Of a stretch of DNA of 28,373 nucleotides, positions 15,829-27,761 are shown piece by piece. The notes below the pieces were generated by a model. That model made no database searches. It had not been told where the DNA came from and saw only the letters and a list, made by a program, of their open reading frames with translations. The DNA lies in IMG/VR virus record IMGVR_UViG_3300028823_000027, positions 1 to 28,373 of that record; one strand, 5' to 3'. Each line of letters starts with the position of its first letter. Position 1 is the stretch's first letter. A program made the translations under genes and the position numbers. The stretch comes from a virus.

Positions 15829-16035
15829 ATGGCCCTCTTGACGGCAGGCTACTGGCCGACTGCATATTGGGCAGAAAGTTATTATGCAGACAACTTTTGG
15901 CCTGATTATGGGACAGCAGCAGCAGAGGAAGAAGAGTTTGGTGGCGCTCAATTCATTAAAAAACCATTTTCATACATCATGGAAGAAGAGGAACTTCTCA
16001 TCTTCATGCGGGCATTCTTGGAGGTCATAAGTTGA
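15829..16035 (+). CDS. small Trp/Tyr-rich phage protein
   Basis: A 68-residue protein with AAAGGGGA just before its ATG. The first 28 residues are strongly aromatic (TAGYWPTAYWAESYYADNFW), followed by an acidic run and a C-terminal helix with FSYIMEEEELLIFMRAFLEV. Short proteins opening with such G-Y-W-x-x-x-Y-W motifs are common next to tail fibre genes in phages, where their role is unknown. The stop codon overlaps the TTG start of the giant gene by four bases (TTGA, 16032-16035), so translation of the two may be coupled. Confidence 0.65.
   Translation: MALLTAGYWPTAYWAESYYADNFWPDYGTAAAEEEEFGGAQFIKKPFSYIMEEEELLIFMRAFLEVIS
16020..16024 (+). promoter_or_regulatory. ribosome binding site fixing the TTG start of the giant gene
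   Basis: GGAGG lies 7 bases before the TTG at 16032 and inside the preceding gene. No in-frame ATG with a comparable site occurs near the N-terminus, so the rare TTG start is preferred. Confidence 0.65.
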
Positions 16036-19000
16036 GCAGCTTAAGTCATTGCCTGGAATTACATACGAACCTTTTTTCTGATGAAGAAAAGAATCAAGTC
16101 AGGAATGCCGCCGCCGAATATCGCAAGGAAGGATTTGACGCTCAGATTGCCAATGTGTCAGCCGTGGAAGACATTATCCGGGATCTCGAACAAGAACGAG
16201 CGGATATCGTAAAACAGGCAACCGGCAAAAAACCTCCCATAAAACCCGAAGTCCCGCCAAAGCCGGAAGTGTCCGCGATCGAAGCGGAAATCGCCGAGAC
16301 GCCTATCGAGGAAATTGAACGGATGATTGAGGAAGCCGCACCGGAAGAAATAGCTCCGGTTGAAGAGGCTGCGGCGCCGGCCGTTGCGGAAGAAGGGGCC
16401 GCACCGGTACCACCGACAGCGCCCAAGCCTCCGACAGAAAAACCCGCCGTGCCGAAAGCGTCCGATATTGCCAAGAAAGCTGCCAAGGCGGGCGTGCAAG
16501 GCGTCGATGAGGCCATTACGGGACTTTACGAACTCTTTGGAGGAAAAGGTGTTGTTCGGACGTTCCCTGGCGCCATAGACGAAAAAACCTACGCTGCGGC
16601 CAAGCCTCACTTTGAGGCGGCCCTGGCAAAGTGGAAAGAAGCCGGAAAGAACCTGAAAGACCTGGTTCAATTCCTGGTCAACAATTTCGGGAATGGCATC
16701 AAGCCTTATATCTCACGCTGGATGCGTGAATTGAAGGGCATAACGGAAATAGAAGAAGCCGAAGGAGCCAAGGCGCCCACACTCGAAGAAGCCGTCGGGG
16801 AAGAGGAAAAAGGCAAGAAAGAGAAAAAGAAAGTCAAGAAACTCAAAGATGTCGGGGAGCGCCGCTGGAAACGGGCGGGAATGTCTACCGAAGACAGGAT
16901 CGAAAAGATCACGCTCGAACTGGACAAGGAAATCACCGAAACAGATACCAAAAAAGTCCTGGCCGCCCTCCAACGCATGACGGTCAAGGCTACCCTGATC
17001 CCTACCAATGAATTATCCAAGGATGCTACACCTGGCCTGATCCGATGGTTTAACGCCATGCGCCGTGACATTGTCGGATTCACCGAGTGGGCCGGCAAGA
17101 AATTCGGGGGCCGAAAAGGGTGGGGAAAAAGCTACGAGGACGCCATCCAGGAAGCTCTCAGCGGCCCTACCGGAAAAGAAGAAGTCCGGAAGATGGCGGC
17201 GAAATACATTGCGACCCTGGAACAGCTCGCCGAAGCGATTACCAGCGGCACGACGATTTCTCAGGCGCGGGACGCTCTAATCAGGCTGATGGTTGACGAA
17301 TCGAATTACGAAATCCGCAAACTCGATAATATCGTCAACTTTTACGATCTGTCCAGCGGCACCTTGGATGGCATCCTTACCGAATGGGGTCAATCGTATA
17401 CAGATATTGTGAAATACAGCCTCTTCATCATGCAGAAAAATATCCTCACCAAGTGGACGGACAGGCTGATTGAGAAAGAAAACGATGAGGAAAAGAATCT
17501 CAAGATAGTCCGGGAACGACGAAAAATCTTCGATATCGAGACGGATGGTGCCGAGAGAAAAGGTAAAAACGTAACAGGACAAGACCTGATCGATACGTTC
17601 GGCCTTGGTACCGTGGCGTTCGGGAACTGGACGGAAGGCCCGCACAGACAGAAGAGCGTGAACCTTACGTTCGATTCGCTCTATGACCTGGTGAAAATCC
17701 TCGGCGCTCCTGCCAAGGCGGCATCGTACAACATGGAAAGGCGCCTCGGGATCATGTACGGTGCCCGAGGGCGCGGAGGGAGAGCGGCAGCGACTTTTCA
17801 TCCGGAAGACAACACGATCAATCTCACCAAGACACACGGGGATGGCAGCCTGGCCCATGAATGGGGTCACGGGTTTGATTTTTATTCTAAAGTCAGCATG
17901 AAGAACAACGAGAATGAGGAATACCGTTCTTACAACCCGTTCGACGACCTCAAGCACGCCTTTAAATTCAAGTACGACCTCAGCAGTATGATGCAGACCG
18001 TCGAAGACCTCTTGCGCGGTATTCATTATACCTCGAGGAAAGGTCGGAACCGGCTCAAGGAAGCCGAGAACTGGATCAAGGATAAATGGGAAAGCGAGTT
18101 CGTCTCGAAAACCCGGTTCTGGACGGACGCAATCGGCCTGGATGGCGGGAAACAAGGCAAATATTGGTCACAGCCGGTCGAGATGTTCGCCCGCGCTTTT
18201 GAGGCCTACGTTGCGGATAACCTGGAAAAGGAAAACTACTACCTGGTCGATCCGGCTTTTGTGGCATCCGGCGCAGTGGAAGAACTTTTCAGGCGGGAGC
18301 ACGGCGCCTACCCGACTGAAGAAGAACGGGACCGATTCAATGAGTTGTTCAAAGCCTTCTTCGACGGTATGACCTGGGACGAGAACGGCGTGCCGACCAT
18401 GAAACCGGATTATGTTCCGGTTACCTTGCAGGAATATCTCTCGGCGAAAGAGAATGTCCAAAAAGTCCTGGATACCCTGGAAGATATTTACAAGGCGCTC
18501 TATGCCGGAAAACAATCGGAAGACGGCCTTTACTGGTATGCCTATCGGGATACCACCCGGGCGCCAGAGATGCAGCCCCAGGGCGTCATGGCGTTCGATG
18601 ACGAATACAGACAGGAAGGCTTTACCGGCCAAGGCGCTATCGGATATGGAGAAAGCGTACACCCGGACGATGTGATCAAATACGGTCTGGAACCGATCGT
18701 TCATGAAAAGACCGATAAAACTCAGTATTTAGAGGTGGGGGAAGATGGAACAGTTATCAGCGATTGGACGACAGGCGGCGCGGCATTGGGAGAGTCATCG
18801 GCCCGAGATGGTGAAACATTTAAAGAAGGTGGGGGAGTATCGACTGGCACTGATCGAGGCGCAGGAGTCGGTGAGGAGGGGGCTGGCGGACCTGGTGTCG
18901 AGGAAGGGGGTGAACTTCCAGGCGGCGAAGGAGTTACTGATGACGGAGCGGATTTACCTACCACCGGAGACGGAACTGAAGATACTTCCGAAGTCTCAGA

Positions 19001-22000
19001 TGCCGTTCAGTCAGCCGGGCGAATCGACCACACCGTCCTCACAACCGACAACCTCGACCAACGCAGCATTGCCCAGCGATTTACCGATAACATAAGCGCC
19101 ATTCGGCTCCTTAAACGAATCGAGGAAGAAGACCGGCTCGCCACGCCCCAGGAACAAAAGGTGCTGGCCAAGTTTTCCGGTTGGGGGGCACTCAGCCCGG
19201 CCCTGGAACATTATCCGCCTGAGGCCTGGCAAAGCCGGGCAAACATGGTCGCGGAGGTCCTCACGAACGAAGAACTGGAAGCGGCACGGCGAAGTACCAT
19301 AGACGCCTACTATACGCCGGTCGCGGTCTATGACGCTATTTACCGGACCCTGGCCAAATTCGGCTTTACGCCTGGCAGAATCCTTTCTCCATCGGTAGGT
19401 ATCGGGTTGGAGTTCGGGACTATGCCGGATGAGCTCCGCAAGATTTCCAGTTTAACCGGAATCGAGATGGACAATATCAGTGCCCGGATTGCCAAGCAGC
19501 TTTACCAGAATCAGAGCATCATCAATGACCGGTTCGAGAATGTGTCCATGCCGGAAAACTTCTACGATCTGGTAATATCGAACGTGCCCTTCGGCGATTC
19601 GCAGCCGCACGACCGGACGCATAATCCGTTTCGGTTCAGGATTCACGATTACTTCATCAATAAATCCTTGAATCTTACCCGGCCCGGCGGCCTAATGGCG
19701 ATCATTACGTCCACCGGAACCATGGATAAGGCCAACGCGAAAGCTCGCCAAATTTTCTCCGAAGAGGCCGAGCTGGTCGGGGCCATCCGTCTCCCGAACG
19801 GTACCTTTGTCGGAGCCGAGGCGGCCTGCGACATCTGCTTTTTCAGAAAACGGGGCGACAATCTCACGCCCATACCGGACAATCCGTTCGTCGAGACAGT
19901 CCGCGAAAAGCTACCTTATCTCAATAAAGACGGCACAATACGGGAAACGACCTGGAAGGCAGAGAGGGATATCAACCAATACTTCAAGGATCATCCCGAA
20001 ATGGTTCTTGGCACTATGGGCGTTCAAATGGGTCGATACGGCGAGCAAGTCGTGACGATCGGTGACAACACGAATGTCGGGGAAAAGATCGATGAAGCGA
20101 CCAAGAAACTCCCGGACGGCGTTTACACGGAAATCCAGGTCAACCATGAACTGAACTTGCTCGAAAATATGCCGAAAGCTGGCGATATTAAGGACGGCGC
20201 CTATTATGTTGGCCAGGACGGAAAACTTTACATCAATGACGGCGGCACCCCGATCGAGTATGAGGAACGCACGCCGACACAGAAAGACCGGGCAAAGCGG
20301 ATCAGGGCTCTTATTCCGATTCGGGATACGATTCGAGAATTGCTAAGAGGACACATTGCCGAAGTATCCAAAGATGAACTCGAAAAATTCCGCAAAATCC
20401 TGAACACACAATACGATAATTTCGTCAAAAAATTCGGATGGATCAATTCGCGCAAGAACGTCATGGCGATCTTTGACGACCCGGACGCCGGTGTATTGCT
20501 CGCGCTTGAAAAATGGGATGAAATCGAAGAAACGAGCAAGGGCAAGGAAGCGATCTTCTCTGAAAACTATATCGCTAAAGTCAAGCCGCCAGAATCGGTC
20601 GAAGATATCACGGAAGCCCTGGTTTATTCGCTGAATTATAAAGGCCGCGTGGATCTCGGATTTATCAGCCAACTTACCGGGGCATCGAGAGACGACGTAG
20701 TTGCCAGGCTGAAAGGAAAAATCTACAACGATCCCGAGCGCGGTTATGTGACGGCCGATGAATATTTGAGCGGGAACGTCAAGCGAAAGCTGAAGACGGC
20801 TATTCAAGCCGCCCGGACGGACGAAAAATTCCAGGAAAATGTCGATGCCCTCCAAATGATTCAACCGGAAGATATTCCAATCCACGATATTAAAATCAGG
20901 ATAGGCGCGGCCTGGATGCCGATCAAGCATATCCGAAATTTCATGCTCGACATGATGGAAGGGACCGTTCGGAATTTCAAGATCGATCATGTCCCGGATA
21001 TCGGCAAATTCAATATTGTTTGGACCGGGCCTTCCAATGCGGCCGCGAACAGGAATCGACAGGCGGGGGAATCGTCCTATCATGCTACCGATACATGGGG
21101 CACCCGCGACGTAAATTTCTTCAAGCTCATGGATTATATCCTGAACGGCGGGTTTCCAAAAGTTTGGAGGCGGGACGCGTACGGAAATAAATGGTTCGAT
21201 CAGGCGGCGACTGATACGGCCATTTACAAAATGAGTCAAATCCATGATCGTTTTCAATCCTGGGTAGCCGAAACGGAAGGCGTTCAGGATGACATGAAAG
21301 AAATTTACAATGCCCGGTACAATGCACACGTTGATCGCGTCTTTGACGGTTCTCATTTGACTATGCCCGGCAAGGTTCCGGACGCGATCATTAAATTACG
21401 CCCTCACCAAAAGAATGCCATCTGGCGGTTTTTGCAGACAGGAGTTGCCTACTTCGGCCATGAAGTCGGTACGGGCAAGACTTTCACTTTACTCGGTTGC
21501 GCCATGGAAGCAAGACGGCTCGGCCTCGCAAAAAAGCCGGTTATTTCCATCAAGAAAGCTACCATCAACGATTTCAAAACGGCCTTTCAGCAACTTTATC
21601 CCGCCGCGAAAGTCCTATTCCTTCATGTGCCGGGCAATAAGGCGAAACGGATAAAGACGCTCTCGAAGATTGCGACGGGCGATTACGATGCTATTGTGGT
21701 CACTCACGAATCATTCGAGAAAATCCCGCTCAGTCCCGAGGGATACGCTCAGACAATCAGGGCCGATGTCCGCAAACTCGAGGCGGCCTTGCTCGAAGCG
21801 CAACGCCAGGGCGCCGGCCGAGTCACTATCCGGGATTTGGAAAATGCCAAGCAAAAATTGGAAGACCGGCTTAGTGAAATCCTAGAAAAAGAACGCGATA
21901 ATATTCCCACGTTCGAAGAACTCGGAATCGATTTGATCCTGATCGATGAAGCCCACGATTATAAGAACCTGTATTTCACTACGAATTACGAAAACGTAAA

Positions 22001-25000
22001 AGGGATTAAGTCGGGCGAGGTCGTAAAACGCAGCATGGATCTCTATGCCAAGACGAATTATATGCACAAACGGTTCGGCAGGGGAATCGTATTTGCGTCC
22101 GGGACGCCTTTAACCAATAGTGTCGGAGAACTGTTCACCCTTTCCCGGTACCTGCAACCTAATGAACTGAAGTTCCGAGGAATTGAAACTTTCGAGCCCT
22201 GGGCAAACACGTTCGGGATTATCAGCAGCGAAGCGGAGCCGAATCCTACAGGCAGAGGGTTCAAGATGGTCACCCGGTTCGACCGGTTCATCAATATTCC
22301 GGAACTCATGCAGATGGTTCGCGGCGTATTCGATATTATCCGGGTAGGCGATAAAGACAAGACCGGCATGATCAAAATTCCACGACCTGATATTGCAGGC
22401 GACAAACCCCAAAACATAATCGTGCCTCAAAACCCGCAAGTCGCAGAGTATCAGGACGAGCTCATGGCCCGCGCGCTCGCTATCAAAGCGGATCCAATGC
22501 ACGCCGAATGGCACGGAAAACGGGATATTATGCTGCGGATCATTACGGACGGCCGCAAAATGGCGATCGATCCGCGCCTTGTGGAGCAGCAGAGACAGGA
22601 TGAAGAGGATACGAAAGTCAATGCGGCATTAGAGAAAATCCTTGATATCTACAAGAAGTCTTACCCGGCTTACGATTGGGATAAGAACGAAGACTATACT
22701 GAAACAAAAGGTGTGCAGTTAATCTTCCTCGACCTTGGAGTGCCGGGCGGGGCTATCCCGCACAGTCCGTATACAGACTTGATCGATAAGCTGGTTAAGA
22801 ATGGCGTACCCAGGAACGAAATAGCCACGATCCATCAAATTCCCTATGGCCCCAAAGGCGAGACAATGAGGAAAAAACTCTTTGCCAAGGTGCGAGCGGG
22901 CGAAATTCGAATATTCATGGGATCCACGCCTAAGATGGGAATTGGAGTAAACATCCAAACTCGCGTAGTGGCCATGCACCATCTCGATGTGGATTGGAAC
23001 TATGCCAATTACGAACAGCGTAATGGACGCGGCATACGGTACGGAAACAATATCAAGGAAGTCCAGATTTATAATTACGGCACTGAAGCGACTGTCGATG
23101 CTTTCATGTGGAATACCGTGGCGACCAAGAGCATGGTGCTTGGCCAAATCATGTCACTCAATCCGTCCATACGCGAACTGGAAGATATCAGCCGCGATAC
23201 CATGAACGCCCAGGAATACGTTTCCGAATTGTCCGGCGATCCGCTTATCAAGGAACAACTCGAGCTCACCAAAGAAGTTCGCGTCCTCCGGAATGCCAAA
23301 GCCGATTTCGATCGAAATAAAATGCGGTCCCGGTCCCGCCTGGCGAATCTGCCTAAGATCATTGAAGGGAAAAAAGACGAAGTAGAGGCCTGGCAGAAGA
23401 AATTCGACCGGTTTAGTCAGATCAAAGCAATTCAGATAGGAGAAGAGTTCTACGACCTCGAAAAAGAGGGCGGCAAGGCCAATGATGCAACCGATAAATT
23501 TATAAAGGATAAAACTGTCATCCGCGCCCTGAAAGGCGATATCGAATCCCGCAAAACGATCGGCCGGTTCGGTTACATCGAAACGGAAGAAGTGCCTTAC
23601 ATCGAGGAAAAGGAAGTCAAGAAAAAGGACAAAGACGGCAAACCGATACTCGATAAGGAAGGCAAGCCGGTCACTGAAATTCAGAAGATCGAGAAGACCA
23701 AAAAGGTCAAAAAATTCGTTCCGTTAGCCCCCCACCTGCGGTTGATGTATAGCGTGTTTCAGGCATCCCCAATGTTTGAATTTTCCGCTACGGCCATGGG
23801 TGGGGATACGGCTACATTCAAGCCGGAAAACGGCGTGAAGCACGTCGTTACCAGAGTCGTGACCGGCATTCAAAACCTGATCGACGAAACGAACGCGGAA
23901 ATCGATAAGTTCGAAAAGGAAATCCCGATCATTGAAGCCAAAGTAGACGCCAAGTTCGACAAGCAGGAAGAGCTCGTAACCAAGGAAGCCCGGCTTCATA
24001 CAGTCACCCAGGAATTACTGGAACGACAACAGCTAGAGGAACAGGCGGTCAGGCAGGGGCGCCATGGCGGGCCTACGTTGCCGGGCGGCGATACGGTCCT
24101 TTCCGCACAAGGAATAGAGGAAGTCGAAGAAGGTACTGTTCGGAATATTGCGACCGTGGCCCGGAACGTCAGTAATGCCCTCAGGAACGCTTTGCCACCT
24201 GAGGTTTTGAATAGAATTACGATTGAACTCTCGCCCTGGCTGGAACTGGAAGATTATTTCAAATCGGGAGCGGCTAAAAAGTCGTTGGAGGAAGCCGGCA
24301 TCAAAGAAGGCCAGAAATACAGGATATACGGAGCGACCAGCTTCACGGATAAGATGGAAGCGATCGTAAGAATCGCTTTTAATCACGATCGATCCCCTGA
24401 ATACACGGCCTATCATGAAGCACTCCATGTTGCCATGCGGTGGCTTTTGCCCCAGGCCGAGTATGACCGCTTGTTGAAGTATTTCAAGGGGAACGAAGAG
24501 AACGCCGCCGAGGCCTTTGCCGGGTTCGCCATGAAACGCAAAGGCGCCGAGCTGAAAGGTTTTCCCGGCTATGTGCGCGGGCTTTTCCTGAAAATCAAAA
24601 GCCTGCTTGTCAAGATTCGAAGCGCCCTGCAAAAGAAGGGGTTCACCGATCCGGAAGCTATTTTCGAAAATATCATGATCGGTCGGTATAAACCACTTAC
24701 CGAGAGTGAAACGCGCGCCAGGACGGAAGAGGCCATCCTATCCACGAAACCGCCGCCGGATCCGGTCAAGGAGAGGGCTCAGGCTTACATCGATGCCATC
24801 AACCAGATGGCGAAACAGAAGAACGCCAGTGAGGCAACGAAAGCCAAAGCTGCCCGGATCAAGCGGGAACAGGATTATTTCGATCAAGGCGGGTTCGTAC
24901 AGGATGTAGGTGATATATTCAAGTCAGTCAAGTCGGTCATGAATAAGCGTGTCGATGATTTCCGGCAAAAACCCGACACGGCCTGGTTCCAGAGAATGTT

Positions 25001-27761
25001 TCAGACACCGGAGTTTTACTTTGAAGAAATAGACGCGGCAAAACGTGTATACGATGCCGCCCTGGAACGGCCCGACGACCTGAAAACGCAATATAACGAC
25101 ATTACCGATCATGATAATCATATTGTGAAAATCAAGAAACTCAAGAAAGAAAGGAAAGAGGAATACAAGAAGCTGAAACGATTCATCACTTGGGCCGACC
25201 GGAACAAATTCGTGGCGACAAATGAAGACCTCAAGAAGGCCAAGTTCAGCGATCAAGCCATTGATGCCTGGCGTGCGTACCGGAAGATCATGGATAACGC
25301 CTGGATTAAACTCCATACTGACATGGTTAATCTGCTTGCCAAGTATGAATCGAAAGGCATGAAGCCGCCTGATATTGTCGTGTGGGAAGGCGATAAACGG
25401 GTAAAAATAAATCTTCGCATGGCCCTTGCCCGCATGGGCGATATGCGCGGGTACTATGCGCCCAGGATCCGAAAGAGCGGACGGTTTACCCTGGTTGCCC
25501 GTAAAGACGGAACGAACCCATGGTTAATCATGGGGGATTCGAAGAAACTGCTTCAAGCGCGCGGTGTTGGTTTCGAAAAGCGAGGCTATAAGGTCAAGAT
25601 AGGCAAGACCAGACAACTCAGTGAAGACGTATTCGAGTACGGTGCCCGTACACTCGACCTGCAGAACATAATCAATGCGGCCCTCGGAGATATCACAAAG
25701 GAAAACATTGGGCTTTCATTTGATCAATTCAATTTAAACGGTTACCGGGAAACGCGGCCGGGAGGGGCGAACTATTTTGTGGTGCGCGGGCCGACCACCA
25801 AAAAAATGAACGAAGTATTCAAGGCCTTTGGCGGCCGACATTACAGCTTTCCGAAAGGAACCGCTAATGCTTGGCACTTTTCCGATCCGTCAGCCGATTT
25901 TGAGGTTAAGCTCTTGAAGAGCCTCGCGGCACAGGCCGGCATTCCAGGAGCTACAGAAGCCGATATGCTTTTCGCCTATGCCTTGGCAACGCAAGTGGCG
26001 AACTTGGTCAAAGAGCGCGGATTCAGACAGCATATGGTGAAACGTGCGGCAACGGTCACTGAAGAGGATGTCTGGTTAGGGTATGAAGAAGATCCGCTTT
26101 TGGCCGCTTCGCAGTATGCCTCCAATGTGTCGGCCGGAATTGCAAAACGGAACATGGCTTCCAAGATGGTCCGCGCCATATCCGGCACCGACCTGGGCCC
26201 GGAAGAATATGATAGTTTCGAGGACTACCTCGAGGGCGTTAAAGAACGCCGGATAGATGCCATTGAACAGCCGAACATTTACCGCGACGTGAAAAGCTAC
26301 ATGATCGAAATGCTTCGCAACGAGGAGTTTTCCGATAGAGTGATCGGGTACGTGAAAGGCTTGGCCGTCCTGAAATATCTCGGGTTCAGGGGATCCTCGG
26401 CCCTGGTCAACCTGACCGCGCTGGCCACGTCGGTACCGTCGTCCATGAACACGTATGCCAATATCGACCTTAAAGATGTACCGAAATATCTGGTCATGGG
26501 TATAAATGCGTCCCTGAAATATCGGAAGCACCTGAAGGGCGAGAGAACCGACCTCGATGATGACACGATCAAGATGTTCGATACGCTCTACACGAAGGGC
26601 TGGGATGAAGCTCAATATAACATGGAGGCCATATCGGTCCTGAGAAGCCGCCTGGGTGGCGGGTACGATAGTATCATCAACGGCGCCATGCTGATGTTCG
26701 GGCAGACGGAACGACTAAACCGAATCGCTACGATAGCCGGGACATACCTCGGGGCGCGGGATACCGGCATGGGTTATGATGAAGCCGTCGAAGTGGCCAA
26801 GAAAACAAGTGACCGCAGCCATGGCGTGTACGGAAAGAAAACCCTGCCTTATTTGGCACAAGGCAAGAATCCATTCGCGCAGATAGCCAAGATGTTCTAC
26901 GTGTTCAGCAAATTCAGCCATACCTACCTGCAGAATATGTATACAATCGGATTCAAGGAACACAATAAGAAAGGCCTGCTTTACATGATGCTTGCACCGG
27001 CAATCCTGGGGGGCGCAGGGGCTATGCCTATCATAGGAAAACCTTTAATCGCCGTCTTAGGTCAAATTTTATCCGAGCTCAGGGGAGATGAGGATGAATG
27101 GGAAGAAGGCTTTTATTCATGGGTCTTCGACTTATTCGGCGATAATGCTGAAAAATTCGCCCGATACGGCCTGCCAGGATTCGCCGGCATTTCTTTAAGG
27201 GGTTCGCTGCAGATCGACTTTATCGGCAATTTCCCGATGAAAATACCAGAATTGCTCGGAGCGCCCGGAAACGTCCTGGTCGATATGTACGAAGGCGGCA
27301 AGATGATCTACGAAGGACAAACTTATCGTGGAATCGAAAAGATTGCCCCGCGAGCTATCAGCTCGGCCATGCAGGGATATCGAGAAGCGAAATACGGCGT
27401 GACTTCCCAGCGGCAAACGCCCATTACATATGAGGACAAGCAAATCTGGCCCGACATGATCGATACGATCATGAGGATAGCCAATTTCAATCCGTCCGGA
27501 ATTTCCCGCCTCAAGGAGAAAAAATGGGCCAGGACGAAGCAAATAAGGCACTACAGGGATAAACGCAGCGATTTGTATACCAGGGTTAAGGCCTTCTATC
27601 AAAAGCCGCAAGGCAGGCGATCTGAACGTGAATGGGCCGATATTTTAGCCGATATCAATGACTACAATGAAACGATAAAAACAAAAAAACTCCTTGGCAT
27701 TCAGGGTATCAGCGAAATTACCCACAAAACATTAAAACAGTCGATCAGGGCAAAACAGTAA
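16032..27761 (+). CDS. giant polyvalent protein: zincin (LPD1), DNA methyltransferase, SNF2-like helicase, second HExxH domain, LPD38/PLxRFG-like C-terminus
   Basis: A 3,909-residue protein, probably packaged and injected to protect incoming DNA (as shown for DarB of P1; inferred here). Order: residues 1-140 acidic/Pro linker; 144-240 a helical module with a G-x-x-G-V-D-E-A-I-x-G-L start and NFGNGIKPYISR end; about 513-780 LPD1 zincin-like domain with H609-E-W-G-H613 and EMFARAFEAYV; 913-996 Gly/Glu linker overlapped by another gene; 997-1275 methyltransferase with SPSVGIG (1119-) and N1184-V-P-F; about 1795-2390 SF2 helicase with GTGK1816-T, D1972-E-A-H, S2023-G-T and Q2329-x-x-G-R-x-x-R2336; 2390-2680 coiled coils; 2795-2799 HEALH, a second metal site; about 3050-3550 helical polyvalent region; 3551-3909 LPD38/PLxRFG-like end with hydrophobic helices near 3648-3685. 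Starts at TTG in a 4-base overlap with the previous gene. Confidence 0.88.
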   Translation: MSSLSHCLELHTNLFSDEEKNQVRNAAAEYRKEGFDAQIANVSAVEDIIRDLEQERADIVKQATGKKPPIKPEVPPKPEVSAIEAEIAETPIEEIERMIEEAAPEEIAPVEEAAAPAVAEEGAAPVPPTAPKPPTEKPAVPKASDIAKKAAKAGVQGVDEAITGLYELFGGKGVVRTFPGAIDEKTYAAAKPHFEAALAKWKEAGKNLKDLVQFLVNNFGNGIKPYISRWMRELKGITEIEEAEGAKAPTLEEAVGEEEKGKKEKKKVKKLKDVGERRWKRAGMSTEDRIEKITLELDKEITETDTKKVLAALQRMTVKATLIPTNELSKDATPGLIRWFNAMRRDIVGFTEWAGKKFGGRKGWGKSYEDAIQEALSGPTGKEEVRKMAAKYIATLEQLAEAITSGTTISQARDALIRLMVDESNYEIRKLDNIVNFYDLSSGTLDGILTEWGQSYTDIVKYSLFIMQKNILTKWTDRLIEKENDEEKNLKIVRERRKIFDIETDGAERKGKNVTGQDLIDTFGLGTVAFGNWTEGPHRQKSVNLTFDSLYDLVKILGAPAKAASYNMERRLGIMYGARGRGGRAAATFHPEDNTINLTKTHGDGSLAHEWGHGFDFYSKVSMKNNENEEYRSYNPFDDLKHAFKFKYDLSSMMQTVEDLLRGIHYTSRKGRNRLKEAENWIKDKWESEFVSKTRFWTDAIGLDGGKQGKYWSQPVEMFARAFEAYVADNLEKENYYLVDPAFVASGAVEELFRREHGAYPTEEERDRFNELFKAFFDGMTWDENGVPTMKPDYVPVTLQEYLSAKENVQKVLDTLEDIYKALYAGKQSEDGLYWYAYRDTTRAPEMQPQGVMAFDDEYRQEGFTGQGAIGYGESVHPDDVIKYGLEPIVHEKTDKTQYLEVGEDGTVISDWTTGGAALGESSARDGETFKEGGGVSTGTDRGAGVGEEGAGGPGVEEGGELPGGEGVTDDGADLPTTGDGTEDTSEVSDAVQSAGRIDHTVLTTDNLDQRSIAQRFTDNISAIRLLKRIEEEDRLATPQEQKVLAKFSGWGALSPALEHYPPEAWQSRANMVAEVLTNEELEAARRSTIDAYYTPVAVYDAIYRTLAKFGFTPGRILSPSVGIGLEFGTMPDELRKISSLTGIEMDNISARIAKQLYQNQSIINDRFENVSMPENFYDLVISNVPFGDSQPHDRTHNPFRFRIHDYFINKSLNLTRPGGLMAIITSTGTMDKANAKARQIFSEEAELVGAIRLPNGTFVGAEAACDICFFRKRGDNLTPIPDNPFVETVREKLPYLNKDGTIRETTWKAERDINQYFKDHPEMVLGTMGVQMGRYGEQVVTIGDNTNVGEKIDEATKKLPDGVYTEIQVNHELNLLENMPKAGDIKDGAYYVGQDGKLYINDGGTPIEYEERTPTQKDRAKRIRALIPIRDTIRELLRGHIAEVSKDELEKFRKILNTQYDNFVKKFGWINSRKNVMAIFDDPDAGVLLALEKWDEIEETSKGKEAIFSENYIAKVKPPESVEDITEALVYSLNYKGRVDLGFISQLTGASRDDVVARLKGKIYNDPERGYVTADEYLSGNVKRKLKTAIQAARTDEKFQENVDALQMIQPEDIPIHDIKIRIGAAWMPIKHIRNFMLDMMEGTVRNFKIDHVPDIGKFNIVWTGPSNAAANRNRQAGESSYHATDTWGTRDVNFFKLMDYILNGGFPKVWRRDAYGNKWFDQAATDTAIYKMSQIHDRFQSWVAETEGVQDDMKEIYNARYNAHVDRVFDGSHLTMPGKVPDAIIKLRPHQKNAIWRFLQTGVAYFGHEVGTGKTFTLLGCAMEARRLGLAKKPVISIKKATINDFKTAFQQLYPAAKVLFLHVPGNKAKRIKTLSKIATGDYDAIVVTHESFEKIPLSPEGYAQTIRADVRKLEAALLEAQRQGAGRVTIRDLENAKQKLEDRLSEILEKERDNIPTFEELGIDLILIDEAHDYKNLYFTTNYENVKGIKSGEVVKRSMDLYAKTNYMHKRFGRGIVFASGTPLTNSVGELFTLSRYLQPNELKFRGIETFEPWANTFGIISSEAEPNPTGRGFKMVTRFDRFINIPELMQMVRGVFDIIRVGDKDKTGMIKIPRPDIAGDKPQNIIVPQNPQVAEYQDELMARALAIKADPMHAEWHGKRDIMLRIITDGRKMAIDPRLVEQQRQDEEDTKVNAALEKILDIYKKSYPAYDWDKNEDYTETKGVQLIFLDLGVPGGAIPHSPYTDLIDKLVKNGVPRNEIATIHQIPYGPKGETMRKKLFAKVRAGEIRIFMGSTPKMGIGVNIQTRVVAMHHLDVDWNYANYEQRNGRGIRYGNNIKEVQIYNYGTEATVDAFMWNTVATKSMVLGQIMSLNPSIRELEDISRDTMNAQEYVSELSGDPLIKEQLELTKEVRVLRNAKADFDRNKMRSRSRLANLPKIIEGKKDEVEAWQKKFDRFSQIKAIQIGEEFYDLEKEGGKANDATDKFIKDKTVIRALKGDIESRKTIGRFGYIETEEVPYIEEKEVKKKDKDGKPILDKEGKPVTEIQKIEKTKKVKKFVPLAPHLRLMYSVFQASPMFEFSATAMGGDTATFKPENGVKHVVTRVVTGIQNLIDETNAEIDKFEKEIPIIEAKVDAKFDKQEELVTKEARLHTVTQELLERQQLEEQAVRQGRHGGPTLPGGDTVLSAQGIEEVEEGTVRNIATVARNVSNALRNALPPEVLNRITIELSPWLELEDYFKSGAAKKSLEEAGIKEGQKYRIYGATSFTDKMEAIVRIAFNHDRSPEYTAYHEALHVAMRWLLPQAEYDRLLKYFKGNEENAAEAFAGFAMKRKGAELKGFPGYVRGLFLKIKSLLVKIRSALQKKGFTDPEAIFENIMIGRYKPLTESETRARTEEAILSTKPPPDPVKERAQAYIDAINQMAKQKNASEATKAKAARIKREQDYFDQGGFVQDVGDIFKSVKSVMNKRVDDFRQKPDTAWFQRMFQTPEFYFEEIDAAKRVYDAALERPDDLKTQYNDITDHDNHIVKIKKLKKERKEEYKKLKRFITWADRNKFVATNEDLKKAKFSDQAIDAWRAYRKIMDNAWIKLHTDMVNLLAKYESKGMKPPDIVVWEGDKRVKINLRMALARMGDMRGYYAPRIRKSGRFTLVARKDGTNPWLIMGDSKKLLQARGVGFEKRGYKVKIGKTRQLSEDVFEYGARTLDLQNIINAALGDITKENIGLSFDQFNLNGYRETRPGGANYFVVRGPTTKKMNEVFKAFGGRHYSFPKGTANAWHFSDPSADFEVKLLKSLAAQAGIPGATEADMLFAYALATQVANLVKERGFRQHMVKRAATVTEEDVWLGYEEDPLLAASQYASNVSAGIAKRNMASKMVRAISGTDLGPEEYDSFEDYLEGVKERRIDAIEQPNIYRDVKSYMIEMLRNEEFSDRVIGYVKGLAVLKYLGFRGSSALVNLTALATSVPSSMNTYANIDLKDVPKYLVMGINASLKYRKHLKGERTDLDDDTIKMFDTLYTKGWDEAQYNMEAISVLRSRLGGGYDSIINGAMLMFGQTERLNRIATIAGTYLGARDTGMGYDEAVEVAKKTSDRSHGVYGKKTLPYLAQGKNPFAQIAKMFYVFSKFSHTYLQNMYTIGFKEHNKKGLLYMMLAPAILGGAGAMPIIGKPLIAVLGQILSELRGDEDEWEEGFYSWVFDLFGDNAEKFARYGLPGFAGISLRGSLQIDFIGNFPMKIPELLGAPGNVLVDMYEGGKMIYEGQTYRGIEKIAPRAISSAMQGYREAKYGVTSQRQTPITYEDKQIWPDMIDTIMRIANFNPSGISRLKEKKWARTKQIRHYRDKRSDLYTRVKAFYQKPQGRRSEREWADILADINDYNETIKTKKLLGIQGISEITHKTLKQSIRAKQ
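18733..18738 (+). promoter_or_regulatory. internal ribosome binding site for the nested gene at 18745
   Basis: AGGTGG, within a longer G run, lies 6 bases upstream of the ATG at 18745 and inside the coding sequence of the giant gene. The spacing and strength are as good as those of the stand-alone genes in this window, which supports independent translation of the nested frame. Confidence 0.5.
18745..19095 (+). CDS. nested small helical protein in the +1 frame of the giant polyvalent gene
   Basis: A 116-residue protein encoded wholly inside the giant gene, in the +1 frame, between its LPD1 and methyltransferase domains. It opens MEQLSAIGRQAARHWESHRP and continues as two or three helices (EMVKHLKKVGEYRLALIEAQ, then LADLVSRKGVNFQAAKELL), ending the ordered part in YLPPETE before a Ser/Thr/Pro-rich tail. 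From memory, many phages carry a free-standing gene of this pattern (H-W-x-x-x-x-P-x-M-V, then A-Q, then G-x-x-x-x-x-A-x-E-L, then L-P-x-E) next to polyvalent methyltransferase/helicase genes. Codons are unusual for this phage (AGG, GGG, GTG, GCG frequent). The giant frame here reads Gly/Glu/Asp low-complexity linker. Function unknown; a partner of the methyltransferase/helicase is possible from context. Confidence 0.68.
   Translation: MEQLSAIGRQAARHWESHRPEMVKHLKKVGEYRLALIEAQESVRRGLADLVSRKGVNFQAAKELLMTERIYLPPETELKILPKSQMPFSQPGESTTPSSQPTTSTNAALPSDLPIT

Follow-up and report, generated by a model that had tools for sequence, protein, structure and literature searches.

A predicted TnpV-like gene nested in the +1 frame of a giant DarB-like gene of phages, with counterparts in plasmids and Bacillota elements

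The comparative analysis of a virus contig of 28,373 bases (IMG/VR record IMGVR_UViG_3300028823_000027; the window, meaning the whole stretch analysed) led us to conclude that its giant DarB-like polyvalent gene very probably contains a second gene, which lies in another frame, is translated and selected, and codes for a small TnpV-like protein. The nested open reading frame (ORF) extends from an ATG at 18745 to a stop codon at 19093-19095 and has a product of 116 amino acids. An original prediction made from the letters of the window had described this ORF in the +1 frame with an AGGTGG 6 bases 5' of its ATG and had noted that the giant protein is Gly/Glu/Asp-rich across it; both descriptions were confirmed, the former in the sequence and the latter in the translation. 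The features concerned are the following.

18745..19095, plus strand: nested gene for a putative TnpV-like four-helix protein, 116 codons, in the +1 frame of the giant ORF.
18733..18738, plus strand: AGGTGG, the Shine-Dalgarno-like site of the nested gene, seen in the sequence 6 bases before the ATG.
18745..18978, plus strand: conserved core of the nested protein, codons 1-78 through IYLPPE, from two alignments; predicted local distance difference test score (pLDDT) in the AlphaFold 2 (AF2) model above 90 for most of residues 4-70.
19019..19046, plus strand: tail of the nested ORF in which the giant frame appears to be the constrained one, from five differences to the relative L002.
16032..27761, plus strand: giant polyvalent gene, DarB-like, 3,909 amino acids, TTG start, host frame of the overlap; matches PHROG 10089 (phrog_10089) over residues 922-2676.

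The two frames of the overlap were compared in disjoint pairs of relatives by asking whether substitutions are silent in one frame more frequently than their effect in the other frame would predict. Across 21 phage pairs the small frame had 370 synonymous changes versus 203 expected (z = 15.1), while the giant frame gave z = -0.9. The same was seen in 32 more divergent phage pairs (z = 15.1 for the small frame and -1.8 for the giant frame) and in 31 pairs from Lachnospiraceae (20.5 and -1.0), and for the small frame also in a diverged subfamily (z = 4.7) and in a plasmid pair (z = 2.7), with the giant frame at about 0. On the flanks the controls reverse, the giant frame reaching z = 14 to 20 and the +1 frame -0.6 to 0.6. 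The alignments were anchored on the small protein, so that a slight bias toward the small frame is possible; against a larger one speak the near identity of many pairs and the clean result in the flanks. By these patterns the small protein is under purifying selection in the overlap. The giant frame is free of stop codons across the overlap in 85 of 85 phage sequences (4.9 expected if the small proteins are fixed and synonymous codons are drawn at random) and in 67 of 67 bacterial ones, nearly all from Lachnospiraceae (0.06 expected), the sequences being related and thus not 152 independent events. Since all nested copies are stop-free far beyond expectation, the giant frame appears to be still needed, and these counts indicate that it is kept open by selection, though without amino-acid constraint in the overlap.

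In 80 of the 84 phage members a strong Shine-Dalgarno site and an ATG stand at one shared alignment column. The energy of the duplex with the anti-Shine-Dalgarno sequence is -8.1 kcal/mol at the nested ATG of the window; its median before the small ATG is -6.6 for 80 phage starts, whereas the remaining ATGs in these giant genes have -2.4 (p = 2e-39), and the corresponding values in Lachnospiraceae are -7.8 and -3.2. Because strong Shine-Dalgarno sites precede the nested starts, these data favour production of the nested protein by independent internal initiation.

The arrangement recurs in other phages. Among loci fetched by their methyltransferase part, a homologous small ORF was found in the +1 frame at the same place in L006 (methyltransferase 50% identical) and L007 (34%). 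The L007 small protein, when used as query, retrieved nested relatives in Itty13, PEp14, Mwe-JY07, Pavtok, SopranoGao, Stean, POI1126, VvAW1, PBC5, Atu_ph08 and LASTA, and it was solely via this protein that the wider family was reached; none of these 11 named phage genomes has the small ORF annotated as a gene of its own. Two more scans of viral contigs added 39 loci, every one nested in +1. In order to avoid selection on the small ORF itself, 80 viral loci were fetched by a methyltransferase profile alone: a hidden Markov model found the small ORF in 75, and the other five, as well as BcepMigl, 8P, Y7 and USP_18, have at this position a diverged +1 ORF that is about 90-130 codons long. Altogether the phages contributed 133 nested loci with 84 distinct core sequences, in all of which (84/84) the small frame is +1 of the giant frame and lies before the methyltransferase-helicase part. 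The claim of the original prediction that this is a real, conserved gene was thereby borne out: homologues exist, relatives have no stop codons in the frame, and the constraint lies in the small frame instead of in the giant frame only, so that none of the three outcomes which the prediction had named as speaking against it occurred.

Related ORFs are also present near the 5' end of methyltransferase-helicase genes in plasmids of Burkholderia vietnamiensis, Pseudomonas syringae and Campylobacter coli, where these genes have no long N-terminal part. Two of the plasmid small ORFs have been annotated as separate genes, and they prove to be nested once the methyltransferase frame is traced upstream; two of the plasmid methyltransferase frames, opened upstream of the small ORF in this way, share a similar N-terminus. 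Since the nested ORF was called as its own gene, the start of the plasmid methyltransferase was probably placed too late; at L146 (5530-6055) and L147 (5536-6298) it is apparently annotated far too late. Pfam TnpV itself is nested in +1 in one Listeria contig and two gut contigs, and these nested copies pass the Pfam cut-off. When bacterial loci were fetched by TnpV alone (n = 80, nearly all Lachnospiraceae), 67 were nested in +1, 13 were not nested and none lay in the other frame. A sample of 150 Bacillota genomes contained nine nested +1 copies of TnpV in six genomes, the free copies being mostly in one genome. The genome G002, which holds L186, has 33 TnpV matches in 5.8 Mb, and most of those examined are free-standing.

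The affinity of the phage proteins to TnpV (PF14198) emerges from the family as a whole. PF14198 is matched by 36 of 52 phage members, at strengths from sub-threshold to moderate, with E-values up to 1 and a best value of 1.8e-6, and hhalign aligned the phage family with the TnpV profile at E 1e-4 and a probability of 58%. One bridging member, L027, has the HWKEHLP start together with the TnpV-like AEEIVL end. In the AF2 model of the nested protein (mean pLDDT 80.6), residues 4-70 form four confidently predicted helices and the tail is disordered; the model of TnpV has the same helix order plus an N-terminal strand pair, the two having been compared by helix order and not superposed. The phage proteins resemble TnpV in being helical, about 110 residues long and found in mobile elements and, going by the models, probably also in helix order, and the Bacillota copies of TnpV are likewise nested in +1. 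They differ by being without the N-terminal strand pair and, except for L027, by the loss of about 18 residues before the last helix; moreover, known TnpV has been described as a free gene of Tn4451-type elements, whereas the phage copies are nested. A viral structure library returned one match of probability 1.0, Q8W6J4_2, which was taken as the PBC5 protein. Profile and model comparisons together suggest that the nested protein is TnpV-like without being a member of TnpV by Pfam's rule.

We take the nested gene to be ancient. In a tree of 47 proteins, whose root is not known and whose long branches make details unsafe, the phage proteins form one group (100/97), and a larger set around it (96/97) comprises almost all of the nested Bacillota copies together with six that are free, with the free Tn4451-like copies outside. 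Some of the free TnpV copies within the nested set look like escapes from nesting and not like ancestors. Free copies inside this clade are L220, L227 and L230, the first and the last beside relaxase or serine-recombinase genes. The original prediction held the small gene to be the older one. In its favour, the small protein has relatives outside the overlap and the giant segment is linker-like, though the rooting of the tree does not fix which frame came first. The giant frame is more likely the newcomer in the overlap, given that it lacks there both the outside relatives and the constraint of the small frame. The further proposals, that the giant gene arose by fusion of two formerly separate polyvalent genes and that the small protein occurs as a separate gene beside methyltransferase/helicase polyvalent genes, found no support. 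A free-standing small ORF between LPD1 and methyltransferase genes, or beside either of them, was seen in none of the phages, and two plasmid candidates turned out to be nested. Fusion of LPD1 and methyltransferase genes is not the general cause, because the plasmids show nesting where LPD1 is absent, and in Lachnospiraceae the methyltransferase lies about 1,000 codons away from the nested gene.

As to how the two frames might work together, one DNA stretch would carry two genes, frame 0 coding for the linker of a DarB-type giant protein and frame +1 being a complete gene whose four-helix product, a distant relative of TnpV, has about 90 conserved residues. Ribosomes would start internally at 18745 on the mRNA of the giant gene, and the small protein would be co-produced with the giant protein, probably in excess. 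The giant frame was probably read across a pre-existing small gene and would remain there as a disordered spacer. The small protein might then bind the methyltransferase-SNF2 module during or after translation, and this binding might help to fold, silence or package the module up to the point at which the giant protein is delivered along with incoming DNA. DarB of P1 protects DNA in cis as a virion protein that shields incoming DNA from restriction (PMC5512222), and purified virions of phage JC1 contain a DarB-like giant protein (PMC9144972). That the small protein is such a dedicated partner of the module is a tentative proposal, to which we give somewhat less than an even chance. The same guarded standing applies to its extension, by which methyltransferase-SNF2 polyvalent genes would generally have a second product that has been overlooked, a TnpV-type protein, be it in phages, in conjugative plasmids or in chromosomal mobile elements; it would act as a small dedicated partner of the anti-restriction machinery from a +1 overlap that predates the divergence of these element types.

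Several observations weigh against a translated TnpV-like partner of the giant protein. The small protein of the window, used as query, had no match in Pfam, NCBIfam, phage or plasmid searches, and the sole relatives matched directly were two near-identical contigs. It also gives no match to PF14198, the link to TnpV resting on its relatives, among which PEp14 (20.8 bits) and Atu_ph08 (13.1 bits) stay below the cut-off of 27 bits. A fold search returned no match among PDB structures, so that the fold gives no function. P1-type DarB has neither linker nor nested ORF, which implies that the module can work without the small gene, and the distance to the methyltransferase, about 70 codons in phages and about 1,000 in Lachnospiraceae, weakens the need for the two to adjoin. 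Length is equally uninformative: a +1 ATG ORF of at least 116 codons appears somewhere in the giant gene in 50% of codon shuffles and in 46% of synonymous shuffles, and length was dropped as evidence for a gene, being at chance level (codon-shuffle p = 0.50). For the 116 codons at the actual site to be stop-free is rarer, as it happens in 5.2% of the synonymous shuffles. With a length at chance level and no direct protein matches, the nested ORF is not provable from the window alone, and a functionless chance ORF would be compatible with both facts. It is the conservation in relatives with codon-level constraint (small-frame z = 15 to 20) that places the ORF above chance and refutes this explanation, whose probability we regard as negligible.

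A role in DNA recombination or mobilisation, as an accessory factor of the directionality-factor or regulator type that is carried in the polyvalent gene merely for linkage, deserves more attention. TnpV copies outside polyvalent genes adjoin serine recombinases or relaxases, an excision-factor role has been postulated for TnpV of Tn4451 from its homology with lambda Xis (PMC3158075), and integrative elements carrying tnpV were reported to insert into snf2 genes (PMC9815147). This role would, however, leave the lasting linkage to an anti-restriction gene in 84 distinct phage sequences unexplained, and the conserved cores tend to be acidic, with a median net charge of -4.5 and no sign of a DNA-binding fold; we consider it unlikely, at about one chance in four. 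Internal initiation would not be needed if a programmed frameshift joined the small frame to the N-terminal part of the giant protein, giving a short product of N-half and TnpV beside the full giant protein. In PBC5 the N-terminal frame indeed runs into the small ORF and ends at its stop codon; PBC5 is, however, just one genome, an old one that may contain a one-base error, no conserved slippery site was noticed, and the Shine-Dalgarno site and ATG at the same column in 80 of 84 members argue against this mechanism, which seems very improbable. Still less credible is that the giant frame is an artefact, with two or three separate genes being translated and the frame staying open across the small gene by chance. 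The missing amino-acid constraint on the giant frame within the overlap would fit, as would the placing of the plasmid methyltransferase start after the small ORF by annotators; on the other hand, the giant-frame domains are constrained on both flanks, and 85 of 85 and 67 of 67 stop-free copies stand against 4.9 and 0.06 expected. We thus retain a nested gene with its own start inside an intact giant gene as the most probable arrangement.

The nested gene itself may be shorter than its ORF. The window and its nearest relative contig, L002, have 12 differences in 16 kb, five of which are clustered in 28 bases (19019-19046, nested codons 92-101), where they alter the small protein four times and leave the giant frame with four synonymous changes and one V to I. 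Since codons 92-101 vary in the small protein and spare the giant frame, the working small gene would end near residue 90; the conserved part is probably formed by about codons 1-90, with the last ~25 codons as passenger.

Overlapping genes of prokaryotes are usually doubted, as single genomes are unable to prove them. In the nested gene described here, found in phages, plasmids and Bacillota alike, constraint passes cleanly from one frame to the other. The gene suggests that DarB-type anti-restriction proteins may have a partner not studied so far, would give a use to the TnpV family, whose function has only been postulated, and may explain misplaced gene starts in databases. Its host gene is that of the DarB-like antirestriction polyvalent proteins (PHROG 10089; Iyer et al., 2017, PMC5512222), which have a methyltransferase and an SNF2 helicase after other polyvalent domains; in that paper no mention of TnpV, an overlap or a frameshift was found. 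P1-type DarB differs from the giant gene of the window in having no linker and no nested ORF. Rz1 inside Rz, mentioned for phage JC1 (PMC9144972), is likewise a complete small gene in another frame with its own start; here, in contrast, the inner gene is constrained and the outer frame is an unconstrained linker, and the same layout recurs in phages, in plasmids and in chromosomal elements, over several phyla. As in viral overprinting (reviewed in PMC8227390), one of the two frames gives an ordered protein and the other an apparently disordered one. In overprinting the novel protein usually comes from the small, new frame; in the present case the small frame is the one with relatives elsewhere, and it is probably the large frame that arrived later. 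The open-access literature yielded no description of the nested gene; subscription papers lay outside this search, and priority is not certain.

The giant ORF has the DarB-like architecture of an N6 methyltransferase followed by an SNF2 helicase (Pfam N6_Mtase, ResIII and Helicase_C), and its N-terminus agrees with that of the relative L006 (MSSLS...). Its further features are listed below.

18138..18368, plus strand: LPD1 domain, giant residues 703-779 (Pfam PF18796, E 2.9e-17).
19100..19862, plus strand: start of the pre-methyltransferase module (GWG motif; LPD36 by description), followed by the N6-methyltransferase domain (residues 1127-1276), immediately 3' of the overlap.
21390..23045, plus strand: SNF2/superfamily 2 helicase region, giant residues 1787-2338 (Pfam ResIII, SNF2-rel_dom, Helicase_C).

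A giant ORF of 5,638 codons in L008 (24-16940), with a methyltransferase part 31% identical, has no recognisable small ORF before the methyltransferase. In Sinorhizobium phage PBC5 (L017, 6718-7294) the N-terminal giant frame enters the small ORF and the methyltransferase frame opens from 6718 only; the change of frame amounts to one base, 60-70 bases before the small ATG, and represents a sequencing error or a natural split. A label as endolysin derived from PHROG 938 was rejected, as the match lies at the profile's C-terminal end and gp22 of PBC5, which contains the small ORF as an in-frame fusion, accounts for it best. In Pseudomonas phage Itty13 (L009, 5845-9306) large genes are annotated on the opposite strand to an open frame of 4,073 codons that carries the methyltransferase, and this annotation looks wrong.

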